IMG/VR virus record: IMGVR_UViG_3300025101_000128
Coordinates: 1 to 28,496 of that record
Length of the DNA stretch: 28,496 nt
Source of the DNA: a virus
Reading direction: 5' to 3' (one strand)
The notes beneath the pieces are model-generated. The model saw only the letters and a program-made list of their open reading frames with translations, was not told the origin of the DNA and searched no databases. Positions within the stretch are counted from its first letter, which is position 1. Each line of letters starts with the position of its first letter. Positions 385 through 25,380 of this stretch are shown one piece after another. Position numbers and translations under genes: made by a program.

Positions 385-1273
385 GACATTAGCTTTTAAC
401 GATGTTCTTAACAATGAAATAGCACACTTTTTTAAATCTGGGAATATTCGTAGGTCAAAAGAAAATAATAAGTTAGATAAGATACATTATCTATTACCAA
501 AAAAAGGTAATTACGGTACTAATTTAGAGTACGATATCTGGTACGACTTTGGGACCGAAAATAAAATAAGAGGTTATTTATATACAGATGTTATGACTAA
601 GTTTGTATATCTAAAGCCTGCTTCAACTTTATACTGTAAGAAAGTAATAAGGGATGCTTTAAACGATGACATTACAGAAGAAGGCGAAAAGATATTTCAA
701 GATATATCTAGAAATAACACAGACAAGTATGCGTTGAGACAAACAAAAAAAGAATACCCGTATGTTATTTTTTTAGCTGGAAGTAACATAATAAAAGAAA
801 TAACAGATGACATTAAAGTGAAAAGAGCTATTGATACAGAAGGAGCTGTGTTAAAACCACACCCTTTAACTTCTCCATTTGTTATGGCTTATTTAAGAAA
901 CCGTTATGGTAAACAAAACTTGTTAGACAGAAAACTGTCAGGGCATAACATTTTAAATAGAACAAGAAAAATTGGATGTACTTCTAACTCTGAAATGGGA
1001 CTTATTGGTTTATCTCAAGGTAAACGCATAGAACTATTTGATCGTAAAAAAATTGCAACCAAAACCTACACTCCGATATACGCTGTCCTTTTTGAAAAAG
1101 GATATCCTGTTATTGATGATTTTAAAAGAATACTGTCGTCAAAATACTCAGGCTTAATTTACTATGATTCTGAAAATCCAAAACAAAATATAAAAAACTT
1201 TTTTAAGTATTTTAAAGATATACCTCATGTTAAACCTAAAAACCCTAAAAGTCTTAATACTGGAAGAAAATAA
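374..1273 (+). CDS. Possible GT-B/capsule-synthesis-like glycosyltransferase
   Basis: This is a 299-residue soluble protein starting at ATG 374 inside the end of the previous gene. Residues around 150-235 hold the features that suggest a role: a hydrophobic strand (YVIFLAGSN), a K-P-H-P-L-T segment, and then C-T-S-N-S-E-M-G-L-I-G-L-S-Q-G-K. The order 'HP ... S-N-S-E-x-G-L ... GK' resembles the nucleotide-sugar side of GT-B enzymes such as capsule polysaccharide synthesis and Kdo-transferase-like families. The N-terminal third is unlike anything I know. If the call is right, it could glycosylate a virion or host-surface component. An unrelated tail protein with chance similarity remains possible. 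The assignment is an inference from short motifs, without an alignment. Confidence 0.4.
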   Translation: MTIETLAFNDVLNNEIAHFFKSGNIRRSKENNKLDKIHYLLPKKGNYGTNLEYDIWYDFGTENKIRGYLYTDVMTKFVYLKPASTLYCKKVIRDALNDDITEEGEKIFQDISRNNTDKYALRQTKKEYPYVIFLAGSNIIKEITDDIKVKRAIDTEGAVLKPHPLTSPFVMAYLRNRYGKQNLLDRKLSGHNILNRTRKIGCTSNSEMGLIGLSQGKRIELFDRKKIATKTYTPIYAVLFEKGYPVIDDFKRILSSKYSGLIYYDSENPKQNIKNFFKYFKDIPHVKPKNPKSLNTGRK

Positions 1274-1961
1274 TCTACTGAAACTTACAACAAATTCATT
1301 AGATACTAATAATCCAGAAATAACTTATAAAGTTATTACTAAAGACAAAATGTTAAAAAGTAGAATTGCTACTGCTTTAAGTAATACTAATGAAATAGCA
1401 TTAGTTATAAAAAGCGGGCTAGTTGTTAATTTAAAGAATAAAGACCTCCCTACTAAATCTAAATTAAAAAAATACCATATGGCTGTTAGCCGATATGGTG
1501 TGTTTACTGACCATGAAAGGGTTAAAGAACATTATCAATATAGTTCTGAAAAACTTAACAAAAAAGTTTTAGATTTATCTATATTTATAATAAACCCTAA
1601 GAAGTGGAAAACAGTACCAGAAAAAGACTCGGGAGCAGTTAGAGATAAAAAACTGTTGTATATGCCTAGATACATGAACCATAAAGATGATATTTTGTTT
1701 GAAGAAGAGTCTACTGCTGCGATAGACGCCTTTAATTATGGAGTTTTAGGAGAACAAGCGTTAATACATAATTATCTTGGACCTATAAACCGAAAAAATA
1801 TTAACGTATTAGAGATTTATGCGTACTGTTTTGATAAATTATTGCCCTATCTAAAAGGAGTTCCTAAAAAAGAAACAACTCGTATTACCTCGTTAGCAAA
1901 CAAAACCCTTACTAAAATTAAAAACACAAGAGAGAAAATGCACTATGTCCACCACAAATAA
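1227..1961 (+). CDS. Unknown protein, partner of the preceding gene
   Basis: A 244-residue soluble protein is read from ATG 1227. The 47-base overlap with the gene before it is long, but the N-terminus (V-L-I-L-E-E-N-N) looks like a genuine first beta strand, and the next in-frame ATG is near 1351. Features include a basic, Lys-rich composition, a segment FIINPKKWK, and a helix ending in Y-N-Y-L-G-P-like residues near 185. I recognise no catalytic motif. The overlap and shared direction suggest it is co-expressed with the putative glycosyltransferase and may work with it. It ends 17 bases inside the SecB gene. Confidence 0.6.
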   Translation: MLNLKTLKVLILEENNLLKLTTNSLDTNNPEITYKVITKDKMLKSRIATALSNTNEIALVIKSGLVVNLKNKDLPTKSKLKKYHMAVSRYGVFTDHERVKEHYQYSSEKLNKKVLDLSIFIINPKKWKTVPEKDSGAVRDKKLLYMPRYMNHKDDILFEEESTAAIDAFNYGVLGEQALIHNYLGPINRKNINVLEIYAYCFDKLLPYLKGVPKKETTRITSLANKTLTKIKNTREKMHYVHHK

Positions 1962-2394
1962 ACACATACGAATATCTGCTGTATACACAAAAGAATCTAG
2001 TATAGAAGTACCTGACGCTGTTCGTTATTTACAAGAACAACCGCCTCAAGTAGAAACAGACCTAGCTTGTCAGTCTGGTTTTTCTTCTATATCTTTTAAC
2101 AAAGAAAAAGCATTTGAAGTAGATCTTTCGTTTCAAATAACATCTAAATATCAAGATAGCTATTTATACATACTTAATTTTATTCAAAGTGGTATATTTA
2201 CTTTGTGTAATTACAAAGACGAAAGTGAGATTGAAGAAGCCTTAGCGGTAGATTGCCCTAATATTATATTTCCTTACGCTAGACTTCACGCTCATCACAT
2301 AACAAACCAAACAGGATTTTCTCCTATACTAATACAAGAGATAAATTTTAAAGAGTTGTATTACAACGAGATAGGTAAAAAATACATTCAATGA
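1945..2394 (+). CDS. secB: SecB-family protein-export chaperone
   Basis: This 149-residue protein matches SecB over its length. Near the N-terminus, R-I-S-A-V-Y-T-K-E-S-S-I-E-V-P-D-A corresponds to the E. coli SecB segment around YTKDISFEAPNAP. The signature V-D-C-P-N-I-I-F-P-Y-A-R lies near residues 109-120, followed by T-G-F-S-P-I-L-I-Q-E-I-N-F-K-E-L-Y, equivalent to the FPxLxLxPVNFDALF region. SecB is a cytoplasmic tetramer that keeps outer-membrane and periplasmic precursors unfolded and hands them to SecA. The protein stops soon after the core and lacks the long acidic tail of E. coli SecB. The lysis genes follow directly, and the curli-type secretion genes lie 5 kb downstream on the same strand. 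An antitoxin-type SecB-like chaperone is less likely because no toxin-antitoxin pair adjoins it. Confidence 0.93.
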   Translation: MSTTNKHIRISAVYTKESSIEVPDAVRYLQEQPPQVETDLACQSGFSSISFNKEKAFEVDLSFQITSKYQDSYLYILNFIQSGIFTLCNYKDESEIEEALAVDCPNIIFPYARLHAHHITNQTGFSPILIQEINFKELYYNEIGKKYIQ

Positions 2395-2396
2395 GT

Positions 2397-2426
2397 TTGA
2401 TAAAAAGTAGCGATTCAAGTTAAAAT
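2397..2426 (+). promoter_or_regulatory. Candidate sigma70-like promoter before lysis genes
   Basis: TTGATA (2397-2402) and TAAAAT (2421-2426) each match the sigma70 consensus at five of six bases, with an 18-base spacer. They lie in the only clear gap (56 bases) in this part of the late block, 25 bases before the holin start, which has its own AAGGAG. A promoter here would allow separate timing of holin and lysozyme expression. In AT-rich DNA such hexamers also occur by chance. Confidence 0.4.
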
Positions 2427-2450
2427 GAATAAAGCGTATAAGGAGTAACA

Positions 2451-2939
2451 ATGGCAAAATTAGCATTTTTAAAAAACATAGTGGGTGCAGTTGCACCAAC
2501 TTTAGGGTCTGCACTAGCAGGACCAATGGGCGGTATGGCAGGAGACGTTGTTGCTAAAGTGCTTGGTTGCGAAAACAATCCAAAATCAATAGAAAAAGCA
2601 GTACAAAATGCCACTCCAGAACAAATGTTAGAGCTTAAAAAAGCAGAACAGCAGTTTGAAGTGCAAATGGCAGAGTTAGAAGTTGACGTTTTTGCCTTAG
2701 AAACTAAAGATATTCAAGACGCAAGATCGAAGTTTTCTAAAGATTGGACGTCTAGAATTATGGGATTAACTGTAGTTGGTGGATTTATGGGGTATATCTT
2801 TCTAATCACGCTCCAGCCTCCAGAGCAGAACAGCGAAGCATTGATCAACTTAGTCCTCGGCTATCTTGGAGGTCTTGCAAGTGCTATTATATCATTTTAC
2901 TTTGGTGCCTCTAATTCTAGTAAGGATAAAGACGAATGA
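2451..2939 (+). CDS. 3-TM holin of the gene-transfer-agent type
   Basis: This 162-residue protein has an Ala/Gly-rich hydrophobic N-terminus (roughly residues 8-40). A charged amphipathic helix rich in Glu and Gln follows (about 55-95), containing the E-L-E-V-D-V-F-A-L-E-T-K-D-x-x-D-A-R pattern. Two strong membrane segments lie near 105-122 and 132-152, with a charged Lys/Asp tail. This layout is that of the 'holin of 3TMs for gene-transfer release' family. Such holins permeabilise the inner membrane so that the endolysin reaches peptidoglycan. The lysozyme gene overlaps its end as ATGA, and a likely promoter and a good AAGGAG site precede it, so it starts the lysis cassette. Confidence 0.8.
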   Translation: MAKLAFLKNIVGAVAPTLGSALAGPMGGMAGDVVAKVLGCENNPKSIEKAVQNATPEQMLELKKAEQQFEVQMAELEVDVFALETKDIQDARSKFSKDWTSRIMGLTVVGGFMGYIFLITLQPPEQNSEALINLVLGYLGGLASAIISFYFGASNSSKDKDE

Positions 2940-3346
2940 ATAGAGAAAAACTTATAGAAGAACTGAAACGAGACGAGGGAGAAGTTCTTACTCTTTATAA
3001 ATGTTCTGCAGGAAAAAATACAATCGGAGTAGGCAGAAATGTTGATGACCGAGGGATTACAGTAGAAGAATCTGATTTTCTACTAAACAATGACATAGAC
3101 CTTTGCGTAAAAGAATTACAGACTACTTTTTCTTGGTTTAATAATTTAACAAACACAAGAAAGCGCGTGTTAGTAAATATGTGTTTTAATCTAGGTTTAT
3201 CTAGATTACTAGGATTCAAAAAGTTTTTAGCTGCTATAGAAAAAGGAGATTGGGAAGAAGCTGGTGTGCAAATGCTTGACTCTAAATGGAGTAGACAAGT
3301 AGGGGCTAGAAGTCACCGCTTAAAAGATTTATTGCTGGAAGGCTAA
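2936..3346 (+). CDS. T4-type lysozyme endolysin (GH24) with E-C-T triad
   Basis: This 136-residue muramidase of the T4 lysozyme fold hydrolyses the N-acetylmuramic acid to N-acetylglucosamine beta-1,4 bond. The catalytic region reads D-E-G at 13-15, Y-K-C-S-A-G at 21-26 and N-T-I-G-V-G-R-N after it. It aligns with T4 E11, D20 and T26 at the same spacing and gives E14, Cys23 and T29. Cys in place of Asp occurs in P1/P21-type endolysins, and a T4 D20C mutant is reported active, so the enzyme is expected to work. Further GH24 landmarks are R-V-L-V-N-M-C-F-N-L-G near 77-88 and S-x-W near the C-terminus. There is no signal or SAR anchor, so it depends on the overlapping holin gene for export. Confidence 0.92.
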   Translation: MNREKLIEELKRDEGEVLTLYKCSAGKNTIGVGRNVDDRGITVEESDFLLNNDIDLCVKELQTTFSWFNNLTNTRKRVLVNMCFNLGLSRLLGFKKFLAAIEKGDWEEAGVQMLDSKWSRQVGARSHRLKDLLLEG

Positions 3347-5094
3347 TGTACTATAAATTAATAACATTTAAAGGGATTGCACCTCAGATATCTCCTAGGT
3401 TGTTAGCAGACACAGTAGCTCAAACTGCTGAAAATGTATCTCTTGATAGTGGGCGTTTAGTTCCTATAACCGATAACAGCACTACCGCTACTTTAAACGC
3501 TTCAGGTAAAACTTCTATATACAAGTATGAGTTTGGCGGTGTAGATTACTGGCTAGAGTGGGCTAGTGATGTAAATGTACAACCTGCACCTATACCTGAT
3601 GACGCTAACGCACGTTTATATTGGACGGGAGATACGTTTCCTAGGATGGCTAGTTCCACAGAGTTGATAGCTTCTGGTTCGGGATCATACCCTAGAAGTT
3701 TTTTCCGTTTAGGTATACCTGCCCCTGAAAATACTCCTACTGCAAGTATAGCTTCTGGGTCAGACGATGGAACTCAGACTCAATTTAGCACATCATATGT
3801 GTACACTTTTGTGTCTGGTTTTGGTGAAGAAGGACCGCCGTCCGCGGCTTCTACTGTGCTTACTAAAGTAGACGCTCAAACTGTAACTGTAGCTAACATG
3901 AGTACAAGTGCAGGCAGTGGTACAAGCAGAAGTAATACAAACATAACTAAAAAAAGAATTTATAGATCTAATACAGGGTCAAACACTACTGCGTTTCAGT
4001 TTGTTGGTGAAGTTAATTTAAGTGCGACTACTTTTACTGATTCTACTACTAATGCTAATTTAGGAGAACTTATACCTTCTACTTTCTGGATTGCTCCGCC
4101 TGATGAAGACACTTCTTTGTATCCTAATGGGCAAATGCGTGGTCTAACTTCTATGCCAAATGGTATATTTGCAGGATTTTCAGGTAAACGTTTGTGTTTT
4201 TCTGAACCGTTTCTACCACACGCCTGGCCTGTAGCGTATCGTATAACTCTAGATGAAGAAATAGTATCTATTGCTATGGCAGGAAATGGCTTATTTGTTG
4301 GTACAAAAGGCACACCTTATTTAGTAATTGGTACAGATCCACAATCTATGAGTGCAGTTCGTATAGAAGCAGCACAAGCGTGTTTGAATAAACGTTCAAT
4401 GGTAGATATGGGACCATATGTATTGTATGCAGGAGCAGACGGGTTGGTTGCTGCGACAGGTACTGACGTACAAGTTATTACTGAAGGGCTTATTTCCCCT
4501 GCTCAATGGCGAAGTGAATATTTTCCTACTGCCTTACAAGGATTTTTATGGGAAGGACGCTATGTAGGATTCTATACAAGTGGTAGTAACTACGGCGGAT
4601 TTATATTTGATAACCGTTTTGGTGAACGTAATGTAACTAGTTTGACACAAACAGCTACTACTGATGTTTCAGGTGGTTTTACAGACCCTGACGATAATTC
4701 TTTATACGTAATTATTGATCCTGCAAGTGGTAATGGAGTAGTTAAAGAGTTTCAAGGCGGTACTACAAATCAAACGTTTACTTGGAGAAGTAAAACATTT
4801 GTACCTGAACGCCCTGGTAGAATGGGGTTTGTAAAAGTAGATGCTGAAGACTGGCCAGTTGTAATAAAAGTGTATGGGGATGGCTCTGTTATTTACCATG
4901 CAACTATAGCTGCGTCTGGTAGTGTTTACACAGTTACAGGCACTACTCCTAGTTTTAGTGCTGTAACAATACTTGAACCTGTAGTTAGATTACCGAGTGG
5001 TGTACACAAAACTTACTCTGTAGAAGTACAATCTACTAAAATTGTAAACGAAGTGTGTATTGCAGAGTCTATTCAAGAGATACGTGCTTTATAA
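3346..5094 (+). CDS. Tail protein, propeller-like (nozzle/hub type)
   Basis: This 582-residue protein begins at a TAATG junction with the lysozyme. It is rich in Gly, Ser, Thr and aromatic beta-type sequence, with no membrane segment. The N-terminus (I-T-F-K-G-I-A-P-Q-I-S-P, then A-Q-T-A-E-N-V-S-L-D-S-G) is typical of a widespread phage tail family whose members start by listing 'sources' along the genome. The centre (about 260-430) has repeated blades of the form 'G-L-x-x-M-P-N-G-I-F-A-G-F-S-G', 'I-A-M-A-G-N-G-L-F-V-G-T' and 'Y-V-L-Y-A-G-A-D-G-L-V-A'. I read this as a beta-propeller like the nozzle (T7 gp12-like) proteins. The fibre gene follows with no gap. The exact role, nozzle or distal hub, is inferred. 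Confidence 0.6.
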   Translation: MYYKLITFKGIAPQISPRLLADTVAQTAENVSLDSGRLVPITDNSTTATLNASGKTSIYKYEFGGVDYWLEWASDVNVQPAPIPDDANARLYWTGDTFPRMASSTELIASGSGSYPRSFFRLGIPAPENTPTASIASGSDDGTQTQFSTSYVYTFVSGFGEEGPPSAASTVLTKVDAQTVTVANMSTSAGSGTSRSNTNITKKRIYRSNTGSNTTAFQFVGEVNLSATTFTDSTTNANLGELIPSTFWIAPPDEDTSLYPNGQMRGLTSMPNGIFAGFSGKRLCFSEPFLPHAWPVAYRITLDEEIVSIAMAGNGLFVGTKGTPYLVIGTDPQSMSAVRIEAAQACLNKRSMVDMGPYVLYAGADGLVAATGTDVQVITEGLISPAQWRSEYFPTALQGFLWEGRYVGFYTSGSNYGGFIFDNRFGERNVTSLTQTATTDVSGGFTDPDDNSLYVIIDPASGNGVVKEFQGGTTNQTFTWRSKTFVPERPGRMGFVKVDAEDWPVVIKVYGDGSVIYHATIAASGSVYTVTGTTPSFSAVTILEPVVRLPSGVHKTYSVEVQSTKIVNEVCIAESIQEIRAL

Positions 5095-6657
5095 ATGGCT
5101 ACTACTAAGACACAAGTACCTTCAATACCAGCGATTCCGAGAAATGAACGTGAGGCTGAAGCTTTTAATAATTCTATAAAAGAAATTTTAGAAGTACGGC
5201 TTGGTCGTAGAGGTGACCCAAAAGATAGAGCTGTTACTCTTAGAGAGCTAATTGATAGCGGTCTAGCTAAAGAACTACTTGATAACCCTTTTGATCCAAA
5301 TGCAGGTATAGGCGTAACTGATTTTGCTTCTAGTTCAACTTTTGTAGATGGTAAACTGGATAACACTACCGACTTAACAGCTCCTCCAACTCCTACAGGT
5401 CTATCTGCAGCTGCAGGCACAACTAAAATTATTCTTAGTTGGAATAAAGCACAAATATCTAATTTAGCGCACACAGAAGTATGGCGTTCTAGTGATAATA
5501 ATTTAGGTAATGCGGTGCGACATGATACTACTGAGGCTTTTGTTTGGGTAGACAGCGTAGACCCTGGGGACGAGTTCTATTATTGGATTAGACATGTAAC
5601 AACTGCAAATATATTTAGTCCGTTTGTAGGTTCGGTAAATGCTACTGGGGTTTTAATTGCAGGATCAAAAATTGCAGATAACGCTATTACTTCAGTAAAA
5701 ATTGTTGCTGATGCTATTACTACAACAAAGATAGATGATGATGCTATTACAACACCCAAAATTGCTACTAACGCAGTTACAGCAGACTCTATTGCTGCTA
5801 ATACTATTACTTCAGGTAATATAGCAAGTAATACTATTACTTCAGGTAATATAGCAAGTAACACTATTACTTCAGGCAATATAGCAAGTAACACTATTCA
5901 AGCTGGTGATATTGCATCAAATACTTTAACTTCAGCTTCAGGTGTATTTGGAGCTATAAGCGCAGCAGATATAACAACGGGCACACTAAATGGAAATAAT
6001 GTAAGTGTAACTAATTTAAGTGCTAGTAATATAACTGGTGGGAATTTAAATGCGGATAGAATAGTAGCAGGTTCACTTAATCTTGCAGGAAAGGCAGTAT
6101 CAGGTTCAGTAGGAACTGTAGTTGCATCTGCTAGTATTACTGATAGTGCAATTCCAGATGATACAAATGTACATAATTATTTAAGCACTTATTGGGCAAG
6201 TAGTCCGTTTCATGCTTCTGGTAGCAGTTATGTGCATATACCAACTGACTCAAGTGGTAATAAAGCTCAAGTAGCATGGACAACACCCAATTGGACTGCT
6301 TCATCAGGTTCTAGTTCAACAAAAAAATTTATTGTAACTGGTTCTTTGAATGCAACAGGACAACTGGTTGGAGACGGTCGTGCAGAAAATTTAACTGCTA
6401 TAGCGGTTAGACAAACATCAAGTGCTACTGGATATCAATCTAGCTCGATGAGTAATTTCCTATTATCAACATCAATAGTACAAGCAGCTGGTGATCATGT
6501 TCTTGGTAGCATTATAATAACTGGTGTAGTAGATCTTCTTCCGAATACAACATATTACGCTTGGTTGTTTCATGGTATTAGTGATTACGGTCCAACAGGA
6601 AGTAGTAATGGCGGAGCAGGAAACGCAATAATAAGAGTACAAGGGTTAGGAATATAA
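5095..6657 (+). CDS. Tail fibre / receptor-binding protein with Fn3 domain and decapeptide repeats
   Basis: This is a 520-residue protein. Residues 1-70 form a charged helical region likely to attach to the tail. Residues ~95-185 look like a fibronectin type III domain (P-P-T-P-T-G-L-S-A, then I-I-L-S-W-N, then Y-Y-W-I-R-H-V). Residues ~190-290 are a run of decapeptide repeats of the type 'x-A-I-T-x-x-K-I-x-x' and then three exact N-T-I-T-S-G-N-I-A-S units, a pattern seen in trimeric fibre shafts. The C-terminal ~200 residues are Ser/Thr/Gly-rich and end in a hydrophobic motif, as a receptor-binding tip would. The tail assembly chaperone gene follows by one base. Which receptor it binds cannot be read from the sequence. 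Confidence 0.75.
   Translation: MATTKTQVPSIPAIPRNEREAEAFNNSIKEILEVRLGRRGDPKDRAVTLRELIDSGLAKELLDNPFDPNAGIGVTDFASSSTFVDGKLDNTTDLTAPPTPTGLSAAAGTTKIILSWNKAQISNLAHTEVWRSSDNNLGNAVRHDTTEAFVWVDSVDPGDEFYYWIRHVTTANIFSPFVGSVNATGVLIAGSKIADNAITSVKIVADAITTTKIDDDAITTPKIATNAVTADSIAANTITSGNIASNTITSGNIASNTITSGNIASNTIQAGDIASNTLTSASGVFGAISAADITTGTLNGNNVSVTNLSASNITGGNLNADRIVAGSLNLAGKAVSGSVGTVVASASITDSAIPDDTNVHNYLSTYWASSPFHASGSSYVHIPTDSSGNKAQVAWTTPNWTASSGSSSTKKFIVTGSLNATGQLVGDGRAENLTAIAVRQTSSATGYQSSSMSNFLLSTSIVQAAGDHVLGSIIITGVVDLLPNTTYYAWLFHGISDYGPTGSSNGGAGNAIIRVQGLGI
5800..5899 (+). repeat. 30-bp tandem repeat in fibre shaft
   Basis: Three nearly perfect 30-bp units start at 5800, 5830 and 5860, and a partial fourth starts at 5890. 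They encode the decapeptide N-T-I-T-S-G-N-I-A-S. Differences between units are silent T/C changes, so copy number could vary by slippage or recombination without breaking the reading frame. Confidence 0.9.
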
Positions 6658-6658
6658 T

Positions 6659-6892
6659 ATGGTACAACGAACATCAGACGAAATACCTAATATGACTATA
6701 TGGACAGTTGTAAAAGATAGACGATATGGTTTATTAAAAGCTACTGATTGGACACAGGCAGCTGACTCTCCGTTAAGTGACTCAAAAAAAGCAGAATGGG
6801 CTACATATAGACAAAAATTAAGAGATTTACCAGAAACATATAGTGGCGAAACAGACTTATTAAAAATTGTTTTTCCCACACCGCCAGAATAA
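6659..6892 (+). CDS. Phage tail assembly chaperone (APC type)
   Basis: This 77-residue soluble protein contains R-R-Y-G-L-L-K-A-T-D-W-T-Q, then P-L-S-D-S-K-K-A-E-W-A-T-Y-R and L-R-D-L-P. This is the characteristic 'R-x-x-L-L-x-x-T-D-W ... P-L-S-x-x-x-x-x-x-W-x-x-Y-R-Q-x-L-R-D' pattern of the phage tail assembly chaperone family normally found directly after a tail-fibre gene, as here. It probably helps the fibre fold or trimerise and is not expected in the virion. It starts one base after the fibre stop codon. Confidence 0.8.
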   Translation: MVQRTSDEIPNMTIWTVVKDRRYGLLKATDWTQAADSPLSDSKKAEWATYRQKLRDLPETYSGETDLLKIVFPTPPE

Positions 6893-6908
6893 AAGGTACA
6901 ATAAAGCT

Positions 6909-7073
6909 ATGAAAAGACCAAGTATGAAAATACAGAAACGTAAAGTTTCTAAAAGACAACAGAAGGCTATAAATAAACTGCCTACTGATAAAAGATCTTA
7001 TGTAAAAAGGCGAGTTTTATTTGGTGATACGCTTAGACAAGCAAAGAAAAAGTCTAAATCACTAAATATGTAG
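6909..7073 (+). CDS. Small highly basic protein (54 aa)
   Basis: I place the start at ATG 6909 because AAAGG lies about 12 bases upstream; the longer frame from 6867 would begin inside the previous gene without a ribosome site. The product is dominated by Lys and Arg (K-R-P-S-M-K-I-Q-K-R-K at the start, K-K-K-S-K-S near the end) with very few acidic residues. It is probably helical and could bind nucleic acid or neutralise packaged DNA. Another small basic Lys-rich protein is encoded on the opposite strand at 11613-11795, but the two share no obvious alignment. Function unknown. Confidence 0.6.
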   Translation: MKRPSMKIQKRKVSKRQQKAINKLPTDKRSYVKRRVLFGDTLRQAKKKSKSLNM

Positions 7074-7076
7074 GTC

Positions 7077-7373
7077 ATGCAAGATGTTGCACAACTAGTA
7101 AGTGAGCTTGGGCTTCCTATAGCTAGTGGTTTGGTAATGGCTTACTTTATTTTCCTTGTTATGAAACAGTTAATGGATGGCCTTGTTTCAGAGATACAAA
7201 CAGTCCAGGCTATATCTAAAATGCTTATTACCCGAGCTGCTACTATGAATAATGATATGATACGCATTGATACTAGCGTGAGTAGTGCTTTGGGTTTGTC
7301 ACCTGATTTAGATCGTATAGCTAGAAGTGAAAACTTTGTTGAGGATGGAAAGATAGATGCTAGGAGAGATTAA
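7077..7373 (+). CDS. Small membrane protein, holin-like (BhlA/UviB-like layout), copy A
   Basis: This is a 98-residue protein with a short N-terminal helix (V-A-Q-L-V-S-E-L-G-L-P), one membrane segment (about 15-33) and a long charged amphipathic helix. The layout matches small BhlA/UviB-type holin-like proteins: an outside N-terminus, a single TM and a coiled-coil tail. It resembles the gene at 7540 in its first 20 residues (D-[V/I]-x-x-L-V-S-E-[L/F]-G) and in the tail motif D-M-I-R-[I/L], so the two are probable paralogues. It overlaps the next start as TAATG. It could be a second holin, an antiholin or a spanin-like factor; the sequence alone does not decide. Confidence 0.6.
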   Translation: MQDVAQLVSELGLPIASGLVMAYFIFLVMKQLMDGLVSEIQTVQAISKMLITRAATMNNDMIRIDTSVSSALGLSPDLDRIARSENFVEDGKIDARRD

Positions 7374-7540
7374 TGGACGCACCAGTAGGTGATGCAGAAG
7401 CAGTTGTAGATGGGTTATTTGGTTTAATTTATTTATACCCGTCTGATTATTTAATTGTATTTGGTTCTTTAACTTTGTTTGCAGTGTACGGCTTATCAAT
7501 CTATGCGGGTATTAAGTACATACAAAAGAAGTTTAAATAA
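7373..7540 (+). CDS. Small single-TM protein between the two holin-like paralogues (55 aa)
   Basis: ATG 7373 shares its A with the TAA of the preceding gene, and its own TAA (7538-7540) overlaps the next ATG in the same way, so both junctions are TAATG. The 55-residue product has an acidic N-terminus (M-D-A-P-V-G-D-A-E-A), a likely membrane segment around 27-48 (Y-L-I-V-F-G-S-L-T-L-F-A-V-Y-G) and a basic end (Y-I-Q-K-K-F-K). The overlaps at both ends and the membrane topology argue strongly for a real gene despite its size. It may assemble with its two neighbours. Confidence 0.72.
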   Translation: MDAPVGDAEAVVDGLFGLIYLYPSDYLIVFGSLTLFAVYGLSIYAGIKYIQKKFK

Positions 7541-7797
7541 TGGACATTGTTGCTTTAGTATCTGAATTTGGCTTTAGTGCAGTTATGGTAGGGGGTTTAG
7601 GGTATTTCGTTTATTTTGTTTGGCAAACAATTAATAATAAAATAGATCCAGCTGTGCAAGAAATGAAAGTAACTATTATACGACTTACAGACCAACTGCG
7701 TTTGTTAGACCAAGATATGATACGATTACAGCAAAAAGTGAATACAGTATTAGAACTAAAAGAAGAAAATAAATTAAAAGATGAGAATGAAAATTAA
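7540..7797 (+). CDS. Small membrane protein, holin-like, copy B
   Basis: This 85-residue protein has an N-terminal helix (I-V-A-L-V-S-E-F-G-F), one membrane segment (about 11-31, ending F-V-Y-F-V-W-Q) and a long charged coiled-coil tail containing D-Q-D-M-I-R-L-Q-Q-K-V. It shares the layout and key positions of the gene at 7077 and is probably a diverged duplicate. It is coupled to the 55-residue gene by TAATG and overlaps the start of the CsgF-like gene by 17 bases, so the small membrane genes and the curli-type genes are translated from one message. A holin/antiholin or membrane-anchoring role is inferred. Confidence 0.6.
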   Translation: MDIVALVSEFGFSAVMVGGLGYFVYFVWQTINNKIDPAVQEMKVTIIRLTDQLRLLDQDMIRLQQKVNTVLELKEENKLKDENEN

Positions 7798-8257
7798 TTG
7801 GCATTGGTTTTTTGGTATATACGTTTATGCAGCTTTATTTTTGTTGCTGCTTAATGTTTACAGTAATGCAGATGAAATACTATTTAAGTTTAAAAGTCCT
7901 AGCTTTTCAGGTCTTAACAGTTCTTCACATTACTTAACAATAGAAAACCAAGAATCTACAAGACGTCAGACCAAAATTGAGGAGGCGAAGTCATTAATTG
8001 AAGAAGCTGAACGAGAAGAATCTAATTCTACTTTAAGTCGTTTTATTAGAAACTTTGAATCAAGAGTGTATGCACAATTGTCACGGCAGCTAGTTGAACA
8101 ATTGTTTGGAGAAAATCCAAGCACCGAGGGTAAACTTGAGCTAGAGGGAAACATTTTAGAGTACACAGTAGAAGCTGAAATAATTACTTTGACTATAACG
8201 GATGAAAACGGAGATATTACAACGATTTCTGTACCCACTGCTAGTTTTACTTTCTAG
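7781..8257 (+). CDS. csgF: CsgF-like curli assembly factor
   Basis: This 158-residue secreted protein has a signal peptide over residues 1-30 (hydrophobic A-A-L-F-L-L-L-L-N-V, cleavage expected at S-N-A|D-E). The mature start I-L-F-K-F-K-S-P-S-F-S-G matches the E. coli CsgF start 'M-T-F-Q-F-R-N-P-N-F-G-G', the segment that inserts into the CsgG pore. The C-terminal half keeps the family order: F-x-x-x-x-x-S-x-x-x-x-x-L, then Y-T-V-E-A-E-I-I-T-L-T-I-T-D, then G-D-I-T-T-I-S-V. CsgF caps the outer-membrane CsgG channel and couples export to curli nucleation. It overlaps csgG by 56 bases. An in-frame ATG at 7787 is an alternative start; neither has a strong ribosome site. Confidence 0.88.
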   Translation: MRMKINWHWFFGIYVYAALFLLLLNVYSNADEILFKFKSPSFSGLNSSSHYLTIENQESTRRQTKIEEAKSLIEEAEREESNSTLSRFIRNFESRVYAQLSRQLVEQLFGENPSTEGKLELEGNILEYTVEAEIITLTITDENGDITTISVPTASFTF

Positions 8258-9008
8258 TTGTGCATCGAAAAATATGCTAGAAGGCGGTGGCATACCCAAT
8301 GTGGTAATTAAAAGTTCCTCTATACTAGAATTACAATTAGAAGAATTACAGAATTTACCTCCAGCAAAACAACAACCTGTAATTGCAGTTTATAATAATA
8401 GTTTGCAAGATTTAACAGGACAAAGGAAAAGTAATGGGCAGTTTGCTTTGTTTTCTACTGCTATTACGCAAGCACCTGAAGCATTCTTGATTCGCGCTTT
8501 AAAACACACATCTAGCGGAAATTTTTTTAAAGTTGTAGAACGCGTTGGTTTAGACTCTTTAACTAAAGAAAGACAATTAATTCGCAGCACACGTGAGACT
8601 TTTGATGAAGAAAGTCGTGTAAAGCCTTTATTACTAGCAGGTTTATTAATGCAAGGTGGAGTTCTTTCTTATGATGTTAATACAAGGTCTGGAGGATCTG
8701 GAGCTCGTTACCTCGGTATAGGAAGTAGCAAACAGTATAGAGAAGACTCTGTTAGTGTATCATTAAGGGTGGTTTCAGTATCTACAGGAGAGATACTAAT
8801 AGAGGTGCTTACTTCTAAAACAGTTTTATCAGTAGGTCTTTCTCAAGATGTTTTTAGATTTATTGATGAAGGAAGTCGTTTAATAGAAGTAGAAGGAGGA
8901 GTAAGTGAAAACGAAAGCACTTCTATAGTAATACAAAAGGCCATTGAAAGAGGCGTTTTGGAGATTGTAAAAATAGGTATTGAGAGAGGATATTGGGAAT
9001 ATGAATGA
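8202..9008 (+). CDS. csgG: CsgG-like outer-membrane curli secretion channel (lipoprotein)
   Basis: The product is 268 residues; E. coli CsgG has 277. The start at 8202 is fixed by a lipoprotein signal ending L-L-S-S-C, with lipidated Cys20. Conserved CsgG blocks follow: P-V-I-A-V-Y-N, D-L-T-G-Q, F-S-T-A-I-T-Q (keeping the Phe of the channel constriction), V-E-R-V-G-L-D-S-L, E-R-Q-L-I-R, S-G-G-S-G-A-R-Y-L-G-I-G, L-R-V-V-S-V-S-T-G-E-I-L, S-K-T-V-L-S, V-F-R-F-I-D and I-E-R-G-Y-W. In bacteria CsgG forms a nonameric outer-membrane channel that exports curlin subunits with CsgF and CsgE. No csgE gene is present here. The residues matching the constriction Tyr and Asn appear changed, so pore selectivity may differ. 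An alternative role is envelope damage at lysis. Confidence 0.95.
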   Translation: MKTEILQRFLYPLLVLLSSCASKNMLEGGGIPNVVIKSSSILELQLEELQNLPPAKQQPVIAVYNNSLQDLTGQRKSNGQFALFSTAITQAPEAFLIRALKHTSSGNFFKVVERVGLDSLTKERQLIRSTRETFDEESRVKPLLLAGLLMQGGVLSYDVNTRSGGSGARYLGIGSSKQYREDSVSVSLRVVSVSTGEILIEVLTSKTVLSVGLSQDVFRFIDEGSRLIEVEGGVSENESTSIVIQKAIERGVLEIVKIGIERGYWEYE

Positions 9009-9732
9009 TAATTTTAATAAAATTACAGCTCTTGTATTTTTGGCTTTGTTAGTTTTTGCAGTAGGTACTAATGCAGATGATAACGAAATATACGTAGATC
9101 AAATAGGCGCAACCGCTAGTATAGACCTTGAGCAGCTAGGTTCTGGCAACATCATAGGTGGCTTAAACTCTGCACATGGTTCTATGACCGCGTTCGATCT
9201 TGACGGTGCAACTATGACCTTAGACGTAAATCAAATAGGTAATAATAACAAGATGTTAGGCGATATTAATGCAGCTACATTTACAGGTATATTTGATTTT
9301 GATGGTGATACAAACTCGTATACTATTCAAGTAGATCCTGGTAATGCGAATAGTGCAGATTCATCAAACGTAAATGTGGACGTGGACGGGTCGACTAACA
9401 CCTTTACATTAGACTTAGCTACTAATGCTTTAGCTAGTAGTGCAGATGTAGATACAATAGTGCAAGGTTCTAGTAATACTGTTCATATTGATCTAGATGT
9501 TGACTCAGGTACAAACTACATAGATGTTGATGGCGATTCAAATACAGTAGATGTTGTACAATCAGGCTACGCTGGCGGCTACTTTAAATTAGAACATGAT
9601 GGTAATACAAGGAGCTTTGACATTGACCAAACATCTACTCAAGACAATGATTGGTTGCGTATTACTTCTTCTGGAAACGCTGGATCCGTATGCGTACAGC
9701 AAAATGACCAAGGCAACGCAGTTGGATGTTGA
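9001..9732 (+). CDS. Secreted curlin-repeat protein (CsgA/CsgB-like)
   Basis: I choose ATG 9001, preceded by GAGAGGA; an upstream TTG at 8980 lies inside csgG. The 243-residue product has a signal peptide (L-V-F-L-A-L-L-V-F-A-V-G-T-N-A|D). The mature part is Asp-, Asn-, Ser- and Gly-rich with curlin-like repeats such as V-D-Q-I-G-A-T-A-S-I-D-L-E-Q-L-G-S-G-N, V-N-Q-I-G-N-N-N-K, V-Q-G-S-S-N-T-V, V-Q-S-G-Y-A and V-Q-Q-N-D-Q-G-N-A, following the Q-x-G-x-x-N spacing of CsgA/CsgB. It is more acidic than classical curlins and ends in a Cys. Position after csgG makes it the likely export substrate and possible amyloid fibre subunit. A non-amyloid beta-helical adhesin is the alternative. Confidence 0.75.
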   Translation: MNDNFNKITALVFLALLVFAVGTNADDNEIYVDQIGATASIDLEQLGSGNIIGGLNSAHGSMTAFDLDGATMTLDVNQIGNNNKMLGDINAATFTGIFDFDGDTNSYTIQVDPGNANSADSSNVNVDVDGSTNTFTLDLATNALASSADVDTIVQGSSNTVHIDLDVDSGTNYIDVDGDSNTVDVVQSGYAGGYFKLEHDGNTRSFDIDQTSTQDNDWLRITSSGNAGSVCVQQNDQGNAVGC

Positions 9733-10753
9733 TATAGGAAGTATCACAGAGTTAAGAGGGAACACCAGGGTAGTAAGAGACAAGCCATATGAGAGTGAAA
9801 TTAACTTTTCACTAAACTCTATGGACAAACTAGAAACCGCAGCGGGGCGTATGGGTGTAACGTTTAGAGATGAAACAACTATACGTTTGACTGAACACAG
9901 CAACGTTGTAATAGACGAGTTTGTGTTTGACCCTGACCCTGCTAAATCAACTATGGCTTTAAATTTTATTAAAGGAACGGGACGTTTTATATCTAGCAAA
10001 AAGCCACGTATACCAAAAGATAATATTAAAATTCGTACGCACGCAGCAGTAGTAGGTATAAGAGGGACAGACTTTACAATTACTGTAAAAGAGACGGGAG
10101 AAGCACTTGTTATTTTACTTCCTGATGAATTTGGTAATGCTAGTGGAGAGATAACTGTAGATACAGCTCTTGGACAAGTTATACTAAATAGGCCATACGA
10201 AAGTACAACAGTGTACAACTTTGAAACAGCCCCTACACCTGCTGTTATTCTTGACCTTGATGTTTCTATGATTGACAACATGTTGATTGTAAACCCACCG
10301 TCTGCAGCTGAAGACAGCACAGGTGAAGAAACTAGTGCAAATAATAGTGGTATTTTAGATATTGATTTTCTTGAGTTTGACGAACTTGATACAGATGAGT
10401 TAGAACAAGACAGTTTAGAATATACAGAGCTTGATATAGATTACCTTGCTGCTAATTTTCTCGAAGATTTGTTAGATATCATACAAGAAGTAGATGAACT
10501 TTCTAAAGCAAGTAGTACTTTAAGCGAACAAGGTGTAAAAGGTACAGCTGTAGGATTTGATAGCGACACTCAGATAAGCACATTTGTTAACGAAAGTGAG
10601 GTAAAATTTATTAGACAAGTAGAAAATAATTTACAACTACAAGTTTCTAAAGAAGGAAGTTATGATATTAGAATAGAACAAGGAGGTAAAACAAACCAGG
10701 TAAGTACAAATGGTGGAACTGCCTCTTCAATTACAATTAAGCAGGGGAGTTAG
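9596..10753 (+). CDS. FecR-domain protein with C-terminal curlin-like repeats
   Basis: The frame gives up to 385 residues. The start is unresolved among ATGs at 9596, 9647 and 9704, all inside the curlin gene; the hydrophobic stretch after 9647 (M-I-G-C-V-L-L-L-L) might serve for export. A FecR domain begins about residue 45 (I-T-E-L-R-G-N-T-R-V, then M-G-V-T-F-R-D-E-T-T-I-R-L, I-K-G-T-G-R-F-I-S and R-T-H-A-A-V-V-G-I-R-G-T-D-F-T). A very acidic linker around 245-285 separates it from a C-terminal ~40 residues of curlin type (I-R-I-E-Q-G-G-K-T-N-Q and S-I-T-I-K-Q-G). FecR domains act in the periplasm or bind polymers. Here it may anchor or nucleate the curlin partner. Confidence 0.7.
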   Translation: MMVIQGALTLTKHLLKTMIGCVLLLLETLDPYAYSKMTKATQLDVDIGSITELRGNTRVVRDKPYESEINFSLNSMDKLETAAGRMGVTFRDETTIRLTEHSNVVIDEFVFDPDPAKSTMALNFIKGTGRFISSKKPRIPKDNIKIRTHAAVVGIRGTDFTITVKETGEALVILLPDEFGNASGEITVDTALGQVILNRPYESTTVYNFETAPTPAVILDLDVSMIDNMLIVNPPSAAEDSTGEETSANNSGILDIDFLEFDELDTDELEQDSLEYTELDIDYLAANFLEDLLDIIQEVDELSKASSTLSEQGVKGTAVGFDSDTQISTFVNESEVKFIRQVENNLQLQVSKEGSYDIRIEQGGKTNQVSTNGGTASSITIKQGS

Positions 10754-11176
10754 ATGTACGAATATAAATGTGAAATAGATAGAGTAGTGGATGGAGATAC
10801 AGTAGATGTAGTTTTAGATTTAGGTTTTTCTATACTGCATAAGGCCAGGGTAAGATTGTATGCAATAGATACACCTGAGTGCAGAACTAGAAATAAAGAT
10901 GAAAAAGTTAGAGGTTTATTAGCTAAGAATTTTATCTTACAAGCTGTTAAGGCTGGGAAAAACTTTGTAATCCAAACACATTTAAAAGATTCAAAAGGTA
11001 AGTTTGGTCGTATACTAGGGACTTTACTAATAGATGACTTAAATATTAACGAAGCTTTGGTAGATAATTATTTAGCAGTAGCTTATTACGGTCAAAATAA
11101 AAATGATGTAGAAGTGTCGCATCAACTTAATAGAGATAAATTGATAGAAACTGGGTTGTTTACGCCTGTAACTTAA
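10754..11176 (+). CDS. Staphylococcal-nuclease-like (thermonuclease) protein
   Basis: This is a 140-residue Ca-dependent-type nuclease of the SNase fold. V-D-G-D-T-V-D (Asp15), R-L-Y-A-I-D-T-P-E (Arg34, Asp39, Thr40, Glu42) and K-F-G-R-I-L-G (Arg86) align with the metal-binding and catalytic residues Asp21, Arg35, Asp40, Thr41, Glu43 and Arg87 of the family, so it should be active. It lacks a signal peptide, so it would act in the cytoplasm, for example on host DNA or RNA, unless released at lysis. GGGGAG precedes the ATG, which directly follows the TAG of the FecR gene. It is the last late gene and overlaps the converging - strand operon by four bases. Confidence 0.9.
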   Translation: MYEYKCEIDRVVDGDTVDVVLDLGFSILHKARVRLYAIDTPECRTRNKDEKVRGLLAKNFILQAVKAGKNFVIQTHLKDSKGKFGRILGTLLIDDLNINEALVDNYLAVAYYGQNKNDVEVSHQLNRDKLIETGLFTPVT

Positions 11177-11358
11177 TCTAAAAATTTTGATAAAACTATA
11201 GAGCCTAGTATAAATGGGTATACAGCCCATATCATGTTTTCTAGTTTTTTAAATTTAGCAGACCCTTCATCGAGTCGCTTCTCTATGTATTCGTACCTAA
11301 TGGCACACTCTCTTTCGTGAGCTTCTATTTTTGCAAAGGATTCTTTTGCTGTTGCCAT
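11173..11358 (-). CDS. Small coiled-coil membrane protein (61 aa)
   Basis: The product is 61 residues. The N-terminal two-thirds is a charged helix (A-K-I-E-A-H-E-R-E-C-A-I-R-Y-E-Y-I-E-K-R-L-D) and the C-terminus is a single membrane segment (M-I-W-A-V-Y-P-F-I-L-G-S-I-V-L). Such tail-anchored small proteins are common in phages beside lysis or replication genes, and their function is usually unknown. It is the last gene of the replication operon and overlaps the stop of the nuclease on the other strand. Confidence 0.6.
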   Translation of the reverse strand: MATAKESFAKIEAHERECAIRYEYIEKRLDEGSAKFKKLENMIWAVYPFILGSIVLSKFLD

Positions 11359-23273: not shown

Positions 23274-23452
23274 TTTGAATTACTCCATAATACATAGAAA
23301 CAAACACCTACTAGACACACAATAGTAAACAAAGTAATAGCGTGATGTATAGTAGACACCAAAGCGAGAGCACCAAGTAAAGCGATGCTACCGCACAAAA
23401 TTGCATTTTTATACTCATGCAGGAGTTTCTTACATTTTGACAATTTCACCAT
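23270..23452 (-). CDS. Two-TM small membrane protein (60 aa)
   Basis: The product is 60 residues with a basic start (M-V-K-L-S-K-C-K-K-L-L-H-E-Y-K) and two membrane helices (I-L-C-G-S-I-A-L-L-G-A-L-A-L-V near 18-33 and L-F-T-I-V-C-L-V-G-V-C-F-Y-V-L-W near 41-57) joined by a short His-containing turn. This is a hairpin topology as in class II holins, but early operon location argues against a lysis role. It overlaps the end of the VWA gene by 23 bases and joins the next membrane gene as ATGA. Confidence 0.6.
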   Translation of the reverse strand: MVKLSKCKKLLHEYKNAILCGSIALLGALALVSTIHHAITLFTIVCLVGVCFYVLWSNSK

Positions 23453-24554
23453 AAGGCGCTTCCTCCAAATAAGTTGACACCCAAAGAACTGGATAGGGAG
23501 GCTCTGGACCGAACTCGTCTGATTCTAGATCAGTAAGATACACAGCTGCAGTGATTTGAGGGCAATGCTTTTTGATATAGTCAAACGCAGGCTTAAAAGC
23601 AGTACCACCACCACCGCTGTAAGTAATCTTAAGTGGTAGATCTTCGCGTGTGTATTGCTGATAATCCTGCACTTCATAATCACACTGTATAAAATGTATA
23701 CGTTCAGGGTTAAGGTCATGCAATACATGACATGTCTCAGCTACAAACTGTTCTTTGTGAGAGTCCGTTGAGCCAGATGTATCTGTAATAATTGCAATCT
23801 CAGACAAACAAGGATTGTGCAAAGAAGGCAGATACATACCTTGTGCAATAAATCTACGATTCGGTTTGATCCATGTAAAGTCTGATTTGTTGTTAGCACG
23901 CAAGAATCTAGCAAGTACCATAGCCCAATCTACTTTAGGAGCGAGCACTTTTTCAATAAGCTCTTGCATTTGACCAGGTAGTTTACCTGCACGCTTAGCT
24001 ACCTCAGCAGCTTGCTGGATAGCAATTTGTATGTCAGCCTCAAACTTACCTGAACCTTTGCCATCGGACACCGATCCGTGGTCGATTACTTCACCACAAC
24101 CACCAGGGTCAGAACCGTCAATTAGTAGTACACCGTTTATAGGATCTTGACCTATGTCTTCGGGAAGAAGATTGTATACTTGTTCGGTTTCCATACCGTG
24201 GTATTGTGGATCATCAAGCTCACCATGAGGCAAAACCATACCGCATTCTTTCAATGCTGGATTGATTACATAGTCAGCTGCGATGTTCCAACGCTTGTGA
24301 TCTCGTTCCTGCCTACGAAGCATATGCAATAAAGCCACGTGCATTACTTCGTGTGCAATAAGACCGATACGTTGTATAGAACTAAGTTTAAGAAACCACT
24401 TAGGGTTGAACATAATTACTTTGCCGTCTGTACAGGCAGTAGGCACATCTGGATTTTCTATGGGTGTTAGCCGTAGAGACAGAGTGCCAAAGAAAGGCTG
24501 ATCTAGTATAAGACCAGCCCGTGCTTTGGTATAAGCTTGCATTGCTTCAGACAT
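23430..24554 (-). CDS. VWA protein with HExxH metallopeptidase-like region (DUF2201 type)
   Basis: This is a 374-residue protein. The N-terminal half has a zinc-metallopeptidase-like helix L-I-A-H-E-V-M-H-V-A (His68, Glu69, His72), typical of the DUF2201 N-terminal domain. The C-terminal half is a VWA domain with the MIDAS motif I-I-T-D-T-S-G-S (D258, S260, S262) and a second D-L-E-S-D near 345. Such proteins work with MoxR-family AAA+ ATPases in metal insertion or remodelling of large complexes; the matching ATPase gene lies two genes upstream in the same operon. The ATG overlaps the preceding TGA as TGATG. Phages with CobS/CobT-like pairs offer a parallel, but the substrate here is unknown. 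Confidence 0.82.
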   Translation of the reverse strand: MSEAMQAYTKARAGLILDQPFFGTLSLRLTPIENPDVPTACTDGKVIMFNPKWFLKLSSIQRIGLIAHEVMHVALLHMLRRQERDHKRWNIAADYVINPALKECGMVLPHGELDDPQYHGMETEQVYNLLPEDIGQDPINGVLLIDGSDPGGCGEVIDHGSVSDGKGSGKFEADIQIAIQQAAEVAKRAGKLPGQMQELIEKVLAPKVDWAMVLARFLRANNKSDFTWIKPNRRFIAQGMYLPSLHNPCLSEIAIITDTSGSTDSHKEQFVAETCHVLHDLNPERIHFIQCDYEVQDYQQYTREDLPLKITYSGGGGTAFKPAFDYIKKHCPQITAAVYLTDLESDEFGPEPPYPVLWVSTYLEEAPYGEIVKM

Positions 24555-25369
24555 CAGTCGTCCTCCAGTAAAGAAGCAGTTAGAAGAGTGTCATTGATAC
24601 CAACGTCATCCATTGTAGTATCAACAGCTTGTTTTTGTTTTTGTTGTTTACGCTTGCGATACACTTTCTCATTGACTTTAGCAAGACGATCACTGTCGAC
24701 AAGATTACGTATGCCGTCCCAAGCTTTAAGTGCTTGATTTAGCGTAGTAAATTTCTCAAGTAAGATCGAAAGTTTTGATACTTCAAAAGCACGTAATACT
24801 TTTAGTTTAGAAAACTCAAGCATTGTTTCTTGTATTGCAGTCAAATTTGAACAATTTTGTACATCAGATTGTATAAATTGAAGCTGGTGTATCTCAGAAC
24901 CACCATAGCTTTGACCAGCTACAGCAAAAGGACGTTCTGAAGAAGTATAAAGCTTTACGCTTTTACTCTGAGGCTCTAGTACAATCTGTCGAACGTTTCT
25001 TTCAGGATCTTTAGACAAGTCCGCAGCTCGGTCTGTACCGCAATACTCAACAATGTCTTCGTTGTGATGTTGGCTATCAAAACCATAACTTACATCATAA
25101 AGAGGTAATGTAATGTAAAACTCATTACCATTCTTTATTTGATCAAAGTCCTTTACATTTGCAAACACAGGATTTTTGTAGAACTCGTGATACTTGTCGT
25201 ACAAAGGTTTGTAGTATTGAGTATACAAAGAGTCACTAATATTAGTGTCAATTTTAGGTTGTGATGAATAAGAACCTATTTGCAGCAACGGATGAACCTT
25301 GTTGAACGCTATTTTGTAATTGTTCCTAATATCATATTTTAGTTGATGAGACATTCTAACTGTAGCCAT
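24554..25369 (-). CDS. Unknown protein between MoxR ATPase and VWA protein
   Basis: The product is 271 residues and starts behind AAAGGAG. A helical start (S-H-Q-L-K-Y-D-I-R-N-N-Y-K-I-A-F) leads to a Tyr-rich middle (D-S-L-Y-T-Q-Y-Y-K-P-L-Y-D-K-Y), a beta region with repeated aromatic strands, a helical segment and a Gln/Lys-rich stretch (R-K-R-K-Q-Q-K-Q-K) before an acidic end. It recalls small nucleotide-modification-associated (Nmad5-like) phage proteins only weakly. Its position between a MoxR gene and its VWA partner, with TGATG coupling to the latter, makes it the likely substrate or adaptor of the pair. No catalytic motif is visible. Confidence 0.6.
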   Translation of the reverse strand: MATVRMSHQLKYDIRNNYKIAFNKVHPLLQIGSYSSQPKIDTNISDSLYTQYYKPLYDKYHEFYKNPVFANVKDFDQIKNGNEFYITLPLYDVSYGFDSQHHNEDIVEYCGTDRAADLSKDPERNVRQIVLEPQSKSVKLYTSSERPFAVAGQSYGGSEIHQLQFIQSDVQNCSNLTAIQETMLEFSKLKVLRAFEVSKLSILLEKFTTLNQALKAWDGIRNLVDSDRLAKVNEKVYRKRKQQKQKQAVDTTMDDVGINDTLLTASLLEDD

Positions 25370-25380
25370 ATTCCACTCCT

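Follow-up and report, generated by a model that had tools for sequence, protein, structure and literature searches.

The gene cassette considered here, a curli-type (type VIII secretion) module, lies in marine phage DNA, an IMG/VR virus record of 28,496 bases (IMGVR_UViG_3300025101_000128), which was analysed over its whole length and is referred to below as the window; the record is classed as linear, so it may be a fragment. Four overlapping genes on the plus strand, csgF, csgG, a csgA-like gene and fecR, occupy positions 7781-10753. The csgF gene (7781..8257) encodes a predicted signal peptide followed by the pore-associated curli assembly factor CsgF (PF10614, E 3.4e-20), and csgG (8202..9008) encodes the outer-membrane lipoprotein of the putative pore (PF03783, E 7.9e-49; lipobox LSSC). 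CsgG matches the CsgG chains of PDB at E ~2e-44; phmmer of CsgF against PDB gave no match. Judged by their profiles, the identities of CsgF and CsgG are certain. The first-pass annotation had read the stretch as two curli secretion proteins, CsgF and the lipoprotein CsgG, followed by a secreted protein with curlin repeats and a protein with a FecR domain, and this is borne out by PF10614, PF03783 and PF04773, and by Curlin_rpt at the level of the protein family.

The E. coli curli system also has CsgE, CsgC and CsgD. None of the three was named in Pfam and PHROG searches of the cassette genes and their neighbours, which included no dedicated profile search. Their absence outside some bacterial classes was reported in PMC9599517. 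The three alphaproteobacterial loci examined resemble the window in having csgF and csgG adjoining curlin-repeat genes, but have neither FecR nor the pair of small transmembrane (TM) proteins described below. A CsgG-like match, 43% identical to the window, was also found in OR851715.1 (Salmonella phage S.Kent 1-2-1, 1,499 bp, unannotated), which may be a piece of a host csgG gene that was submitted under a phage name.

The csgA-like gene (9001..9732, plus strand) encodes a curlin-type beta protein of 243 amino acids, predicted to be secreted and likely the export substrate, as judged from family alignment, profile and model. Searched alone, the protein gives no Pfam match, Curlin_rpt included. 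In its family, Curlin_rpt (PF07012) is matched by seven of 15 members (best E 1.1e-4), the family profile matches PDB 8c50, 'Curlin associated repeat-containing protein' (E 1.2e-4), and the alignment contains a conserved cysteine-containing tail at the C-terminus. Four curlin-type motifs are present in the window protein versus a mean of 0.2 in shuffled sequence. The AF2 model is all-beta past the signal (pLDDT 82); Foldseek with this model returned no significant match. The gene is likely to encode a divergent curlin-type substrate, the support coming from the family and not from the protein itself.

The fecR gene (9596..10753, plus strand; PF04773, E 1.7e-10) encodes a protein with a predicted signal peptide, for which AlphaFold gives a confidently modelled FecR domain (residues ~45-215), a disordered acidic linker (~228-311) and a beta region at the C-terminus. 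Foldseek of the model retrieves the periplasmic FecR domains of PupR and BDI_1681 (6ovk, 4m0h; E about 1e-4). The domain fold is thus that of the FecR/PupR/FpvR regulators; unlike them, the window protein has no cytoplasmic anti-sigma domain, and has a signal peptide, a disordered linker and a C-terminal beta region instead. PF04773 was found in all 14 FecR relatives, and an anti-sigma N-domain ahead of a single TM segment in none of the 14, the N-terminus being a predicted signal peptide. The protein is therefore probably exported, as an anchor or nucleator, which fits these features better than an iron-dependent regulator. In the alternative proposed in PMC9599517 and PMC7029224, CsgG would serve as a nutrient or siderophore channel and FecR as its iron-sensing regulator. 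The FecR domain itself speaks for such an uptake pore; the lack of an anti-sigma domain and the predicted export speak against it, and it leaves the conserved CsgF and curlin substrate unexplained, which makes it very unlikely.

Curlin-like repeats had also been ascribed to the FecR protein at first pass. The FecR domain is certain; of the repeats, one motif (IRIEQGGKTN) and a terminal half motif were found, and the assignment of several curlin repeats was downgraded to one motif. In bacterial relatives the FecR domain lies near the N-terminus of RTX-repeat proteins and other long, probably surface-located proteins. No bacterial FecR relative was found beside csgG except on phage-like contigs in metagenome-assembled genomes (MAGs). 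The phage csg cassette, complete or in part, occurs in MAG bins assigned to Neomarinimicrobiota, Maricaulis, Pelagibacter and Flavobacteriaceae (L030-L035, L070), which are probably misbinned phage contigs. A short FecR-domain protein of ~190 amino acids is encoded in SAR11 single-cell genomes and MAGs (L057-L067, L076), and its gene has no csg neighbours there.

The fecR gene begins within csgA, which it overlaps at 9596..9732 (plus strand), and in this overlap the fecR frame encodes the predicted FecR signal peptide. The out-of-frame stretch is open and hydrophobic in all 12 podophage-type lineages tested. When csgA was recoded synonymously, an equally open and hydrophobic stretch arose with P <=0.04 in each of the 12 loci, which are related, so that the P values are not independent. 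In HTVC008M fecR begins just past the curlin gene and has its own predicted signal peptide.

A search of viral sequences for the same gene order, suggested in the first-pass annotation, showed that csgF-csgG-csgA-fecR recurs among 288 viral csgG loci, which represent 229 distinct csgG sequences. Conservation was counted in the best 80 of at least 597 csgG matches, a sample that leans to relatives of the query set and in which the loci of several scans overlap. CsgF and at least one TM protein are present in all 64 loci with enough upstream sequence, and CsgA and FecR in all 53 with enough downstream sequence. All six genes are under purifying selection, with ratios of nonsynonymous to synonymous substitution rates (dN/dS) of 0.02-0.19, and about 0.06 for fecR; substrate and FecR would therefore matter, and not the pore alone. 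Since IMG/VR lists the window as a virus record, phage genes flank the cassette on either side, and the 288 viral loci have csgG in the same setting, a host genomic island or an assembly chimera, either of which had been named as a possible objection, is ruled out.

The backbone of the window, as assigned from its genes, is that of a podophage lineage other than the HTVC023P type, with KPP25/RHph_TM-like replication genes. Its DNA polymerase A (PolA) is nearest to those of Rhizobium RHph_TM phages and Pseudomonas KPP25 (~33%), and shares 26% identity over 142 amino acids with that of HTVC023P; its internal virion protein is nearest to those of BcepIL02- and Vibrio-type phages. G004, a 58-kb contig with overlapping ends, has a terminase 52-57% identical to those of HTVC023P-type phages. 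The window and G004 proteins are 89% (TMa), 93% (TMb), 73% (CsgF), 71% (CsgG), 80% (CsgA) and 71% (FecR) identical, and beyond the cassette the two contigs have in common essentially only an SNase gene and two small genes, which argues that the cassette moves between unrelated backbones. Its transfer between phage families had already been argued for in PMC9599517; the window adds one more lineage to the known carriers.

In G004 the cassette is flanked by genes for an endolysin (phrog_7, E 4.8e-63) and for an i-spanin (phrog_739, E 2.1e-8) that overlaps the o-spanin gene (phrog_812, E 3.8e-14). Lysis genes flank it in many other viral loci too: across about 290 of them the cassette comes after the conserved TM pair, in many cases near spanins and endolysin, the recurrent order being m61-SNase-p10198-TM-TM-csgF-csgG-csgA-fecR-iSpanin-oSpanin-endolysin, with variants. 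The setting among phage membrane and lysis genes noticed at first pass is confirmed by the TM pair and by these gene orders. The csg genes are absent from twelve loci (8 contigs) in which the TM pair and its lysis-region neighbours are present. The module boundaries come from a pair of loci, one with csg genes (L313) and one without (L303), which are ~87% identical over 1.5 kb upstream and 85% identical over 0.75 kb downstream. The surplus of 2.94 kb in L313 extends from the start codon of csgF to the stop codon of fecR, with TMb and its leader on one side and the i-spanin gene on the other. By this alignment the movable or losable unit is the four genes, and the pair is compatible with loss in L303 or gain in L313.

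The same region bears on a role of the cassette in lysis itself. The pore of CsgG and CsgF, alone or together with curlin assembly, could permeabilise the outer membrane and so replace or supplement the spanins, as the position beside holin-like proteins, spanins and endolysin would suggest; a pinholin or secretin role was proposed in PMC9004378, and the first-pass annotation had offered as one hypothesis that the pore plus curlin assembly disrupts the outer membrane instead of spanins. An Rz/Rz1-like pair of i- and o-spanin genes occurs, however, in 38 of the 85 cassette carriers whose sequence extends 3 kb or more past fecR, so the cassette is no general stand-in for spanins, and replacement as a general rule is rejected. 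The csg-less L303 likewise retains spanins, SNase and endolysin in place. In the window's own lineage replacement could still apply: in G297, a 57-kb contig of this lineage (PolA 85%), profiles recognised no spanin, although divergent spanins would be missed by such a search, and a simple scan of the late strand found no lipoprotein except CsgG. A pore that served lysis would not require curlin and FecR, which are conserved and under purifying selection. On balance an aid to lysis is a secondary and rather unlikely explanation. G297 (L452-L454) also encodes, at 856-8499 in window orientation, a protein of 2,547 amino acids with a lysozyme-like stretch.

Three small membrane proteins are encoded directly ahead of csgF on the plus strand. 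TMa (7077..7373; phrog_18771, E 1.5e-23) has 98 amino acids, with a single TM segment and a coiled coil in a holin-like layout; TMb (7540..7797; phrog_18771, E 8.8e-24) is its paralogue of 85 amino acids; TM2 (7373..7540), of 55 amino acids, belongs to no significant family and occurs in some relatives only. TMb is the most conserved protein of the region (60-86% identity among diverse phages; dN/dS 0.02-0.06). The PHROG holin match of TMa is weak (E 0.011); position, size and lysis neighbours suggest that the TM pair is holin-like. A strict link of the pair to curli was first backed by cultured phages, and was overturned by loci in which the pair stands with spanins or endolysin and without csg genes; TMa accompanies csgG and is rarely found in lysis regions lacking csg.

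One or two 'histidine kinases' (HK) were placed directly ahead of csgF in PMC9599517. In the window, HTVC008M and Melnitz this place is taken by the small TM pair, and the gene order makes it most likely that the published 'HK' is this pair. No kinase domain was matched in the two proteins (85-98 amino acids, one TM segment each) by Pfam up to E 10; the absence of any dimerisation or ATPase domain match rules out a histidine kinase.

On the other side of the cassette, directly after fecR, lies a gene for an SNase-like nuclease (10754..11176, plus strand; PF00565, E 1.6e-10), which recurs beside the lysis region in relatives. It is followed by m61 (11173..11358), a recurrent neighbour that stands here on the minus strand and encodes 61 amino acids with a coiled coil and a C-terminal TM segment in an XhlA-like layout; family searches with m61 gave no match. 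All genes from the tail-fibre gene through the SNase gene are on one strand. Overlap of the cassette genes, claimed at first pass, was confirmed; the single message claimed with it would follow from this arrangement, the promoter and terminator scans having returned nothing above chance. Upstream on the plus strand are genes for a phage lysozyme (2936-3346, PF00959), an internal virion protein (3346-5094), a tail fibre (5095-6657) and a tail-fibre chaperone (6659-6892). Leftward genes begin at 11173 and include a replication set of helicase, exonuclease, primase and DNA polymerase A. The replication half also encodes, at 23430-26397 on the minus strand, a DUF2201 metallopeptidase/VWA protein near a MoxR-like AAA ATPase, with relatives in G005.

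The closeness of the cassette to the tail-fibre and chaperone genes, just upstream of it in the window's lineage, is the only support for decoration of the virion, in which fibres of the curlin type would belong to the particle or be fixed to it. Other backbones carry the cassette among lysis genes and not tail genes, and the predicted export signals and the accompanying outer-membrane pore also speak against decoration, which is extremely improbable.

The cassette has been described earlier, as the first-pass annotation suggested for csgG and csgF in marine phages. CsgF and CsgG were reported in pelagimyophages (PMC7029224, 2020) and in the OM43 phage Melnitz (PMC9004378, 2022), and CsgF-CsgG-CsgA/B-FecR in nine HTVC023P-type podophages and in pelagimyophages (PMC9599517, 2022), where a second curlin gene and a cyclase often follow. 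The GenBank annotation of Melnitz has the order CsgF, CsgG, curlin, FecR, curlin, cyclase. Both PMC9599517 and the Melnitz record contradict the suggestion that a full cassette including its substrate might be undescribed. In PMC9004378 csgA and csgB were stated to be lacking in Melnitz; contrary to this statement, the phage encodes a FecR protein and two proteins with curlin-associated repeats (L029:5716-8510). Profiles assign the proteins of both Melnitz and HTVC008M to the curlin family. A 'hypothetical protein' past fecR in HTVC008M (L028:7561-8886) combines a PA14 domain (E 2.7e-6) with Curlin_rpt repeats (E 5.2e-8), and may be a curlin-type protein with a carbohydrate-binding domain.

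The type VIII secretion module of HTVC023P-type phages resembles that of the window in its small 'HK' proteins, CsgF, CsgG, CsgA/B and FecR. The window differs in having no second CsgA/B or cyclase after fecR and in that the protein in the 'HK' position lacks a kinase domain; the text of PMC9599517 that was consulted describes neither the limits of the module nor its setting in a lysis region. The clusters of HTVC008M and Melnitz have the TM pair, CsgF, CsgG, curlin and FecR in the order of the window, with CsgG 43-45% identical, and differ in the extra second curlin and adenylate cyclase and in their genomic region. In comparison with phage lysis cassettes (holin, endolysin, Rz/Rz1), the TM pair, SNase, m61, spanins and endolysin surround the csg genes, which are not themselves lysis genes; the holin role of the TM pair is proposed from layout and context.

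The best reading of these data, held at about even confidence, is late, lysis-timed surface export of an amyloid-like protein by a transferable four-gene curli module. Late in infection CsgG, with the help of CsgF, would form an outer-membrane pore through which the curlin-type protein leaves, and the infected cell would come to carry amyloid-like material on its surface shortly before lysis or while it proceeds. The FecR protein would enter the periplasm and could anchor or nucleate the fibre at the CsgG pore, as its architecture suggests, with a folded domain at the N-terminus, a disordered linker and a beta region at the C-terminus. The benefit would most likely be that progeny, debris or cells close by are kept together when the host lyses. 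The sequence itself shows which genes these are, where the module begins and ends, its setting in a lysis region, the purifying selection and the lack of an anti-sigma domain; signal peptides, pore function, export, fibres, late timing, anchoring and benefit are inferred from it.

Several points weigh against this account. Pore, fibre and export are predicted from the genes, and the late timing is read from gene position. No csgE gate turned up, no profile search for csgE having been made. In HTVC008M and Melnitz the cassette is not among the annotated lysis genes. Melnitz infections, under one set of culture conditions, proceeded without clumping in cytograms or in transmission electron microscopy although curlin-repeat genes are present (PMC9004378). 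For the FecR protein, the Foldseek match to the 'Cell surface anchoring domain' 5ix9, which would weakly favour an anchor, is below significance (E 0.016, target TM-score 0.69). This entry we take to be the retention domain of an RTX adhesin. Profile comparison of the FecR and CsgA families gave a probability of 3.4% only, so the curlin similarity of the C-terminus is weak.

Surface fibres could instead stop competing phages from adsorbing. Exclusion genes usually act early, and the late position of the cassette in the lysis region suggests late expression. Superinfection exclusion was proposed in PMC9599517 and is compatible with surface export; as the benefit it is less likely than the holding together of cells and debris, and as an explanation of the cassette it is improbable.

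A more specific version of lysis-timed export could be considered for the window's lineage, with little probability attached to it. Here the csg module would be a lysis-coupled outer-membrane device: as the cell lyses, curlin would pass out through CsgG pores that are held by plugs of FecR domains. This export would both weaken the outer membrane and leave behind a net of amyloid to which debris and neighbouring cells are tethered. If true, this would be a lysis-timed amyloid system without known counterpart.

New here are another backbone, the exact module boundaries, the lysis-region context, the probably exported FecR protein and the doubtful kinase label. Among the genes that abundant ocean phages carry, those for curli are unusual. 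The four-gene module, present in some and absent from other related phages, provides a natural comparison, and its probable timing is placed at lysis. A general role in replacing spanins is ruled out, the supposed iron regulator becomes a testable component that is probably exported, and the published regulatory reading of FecR and the histidine kinase merits revisiting.

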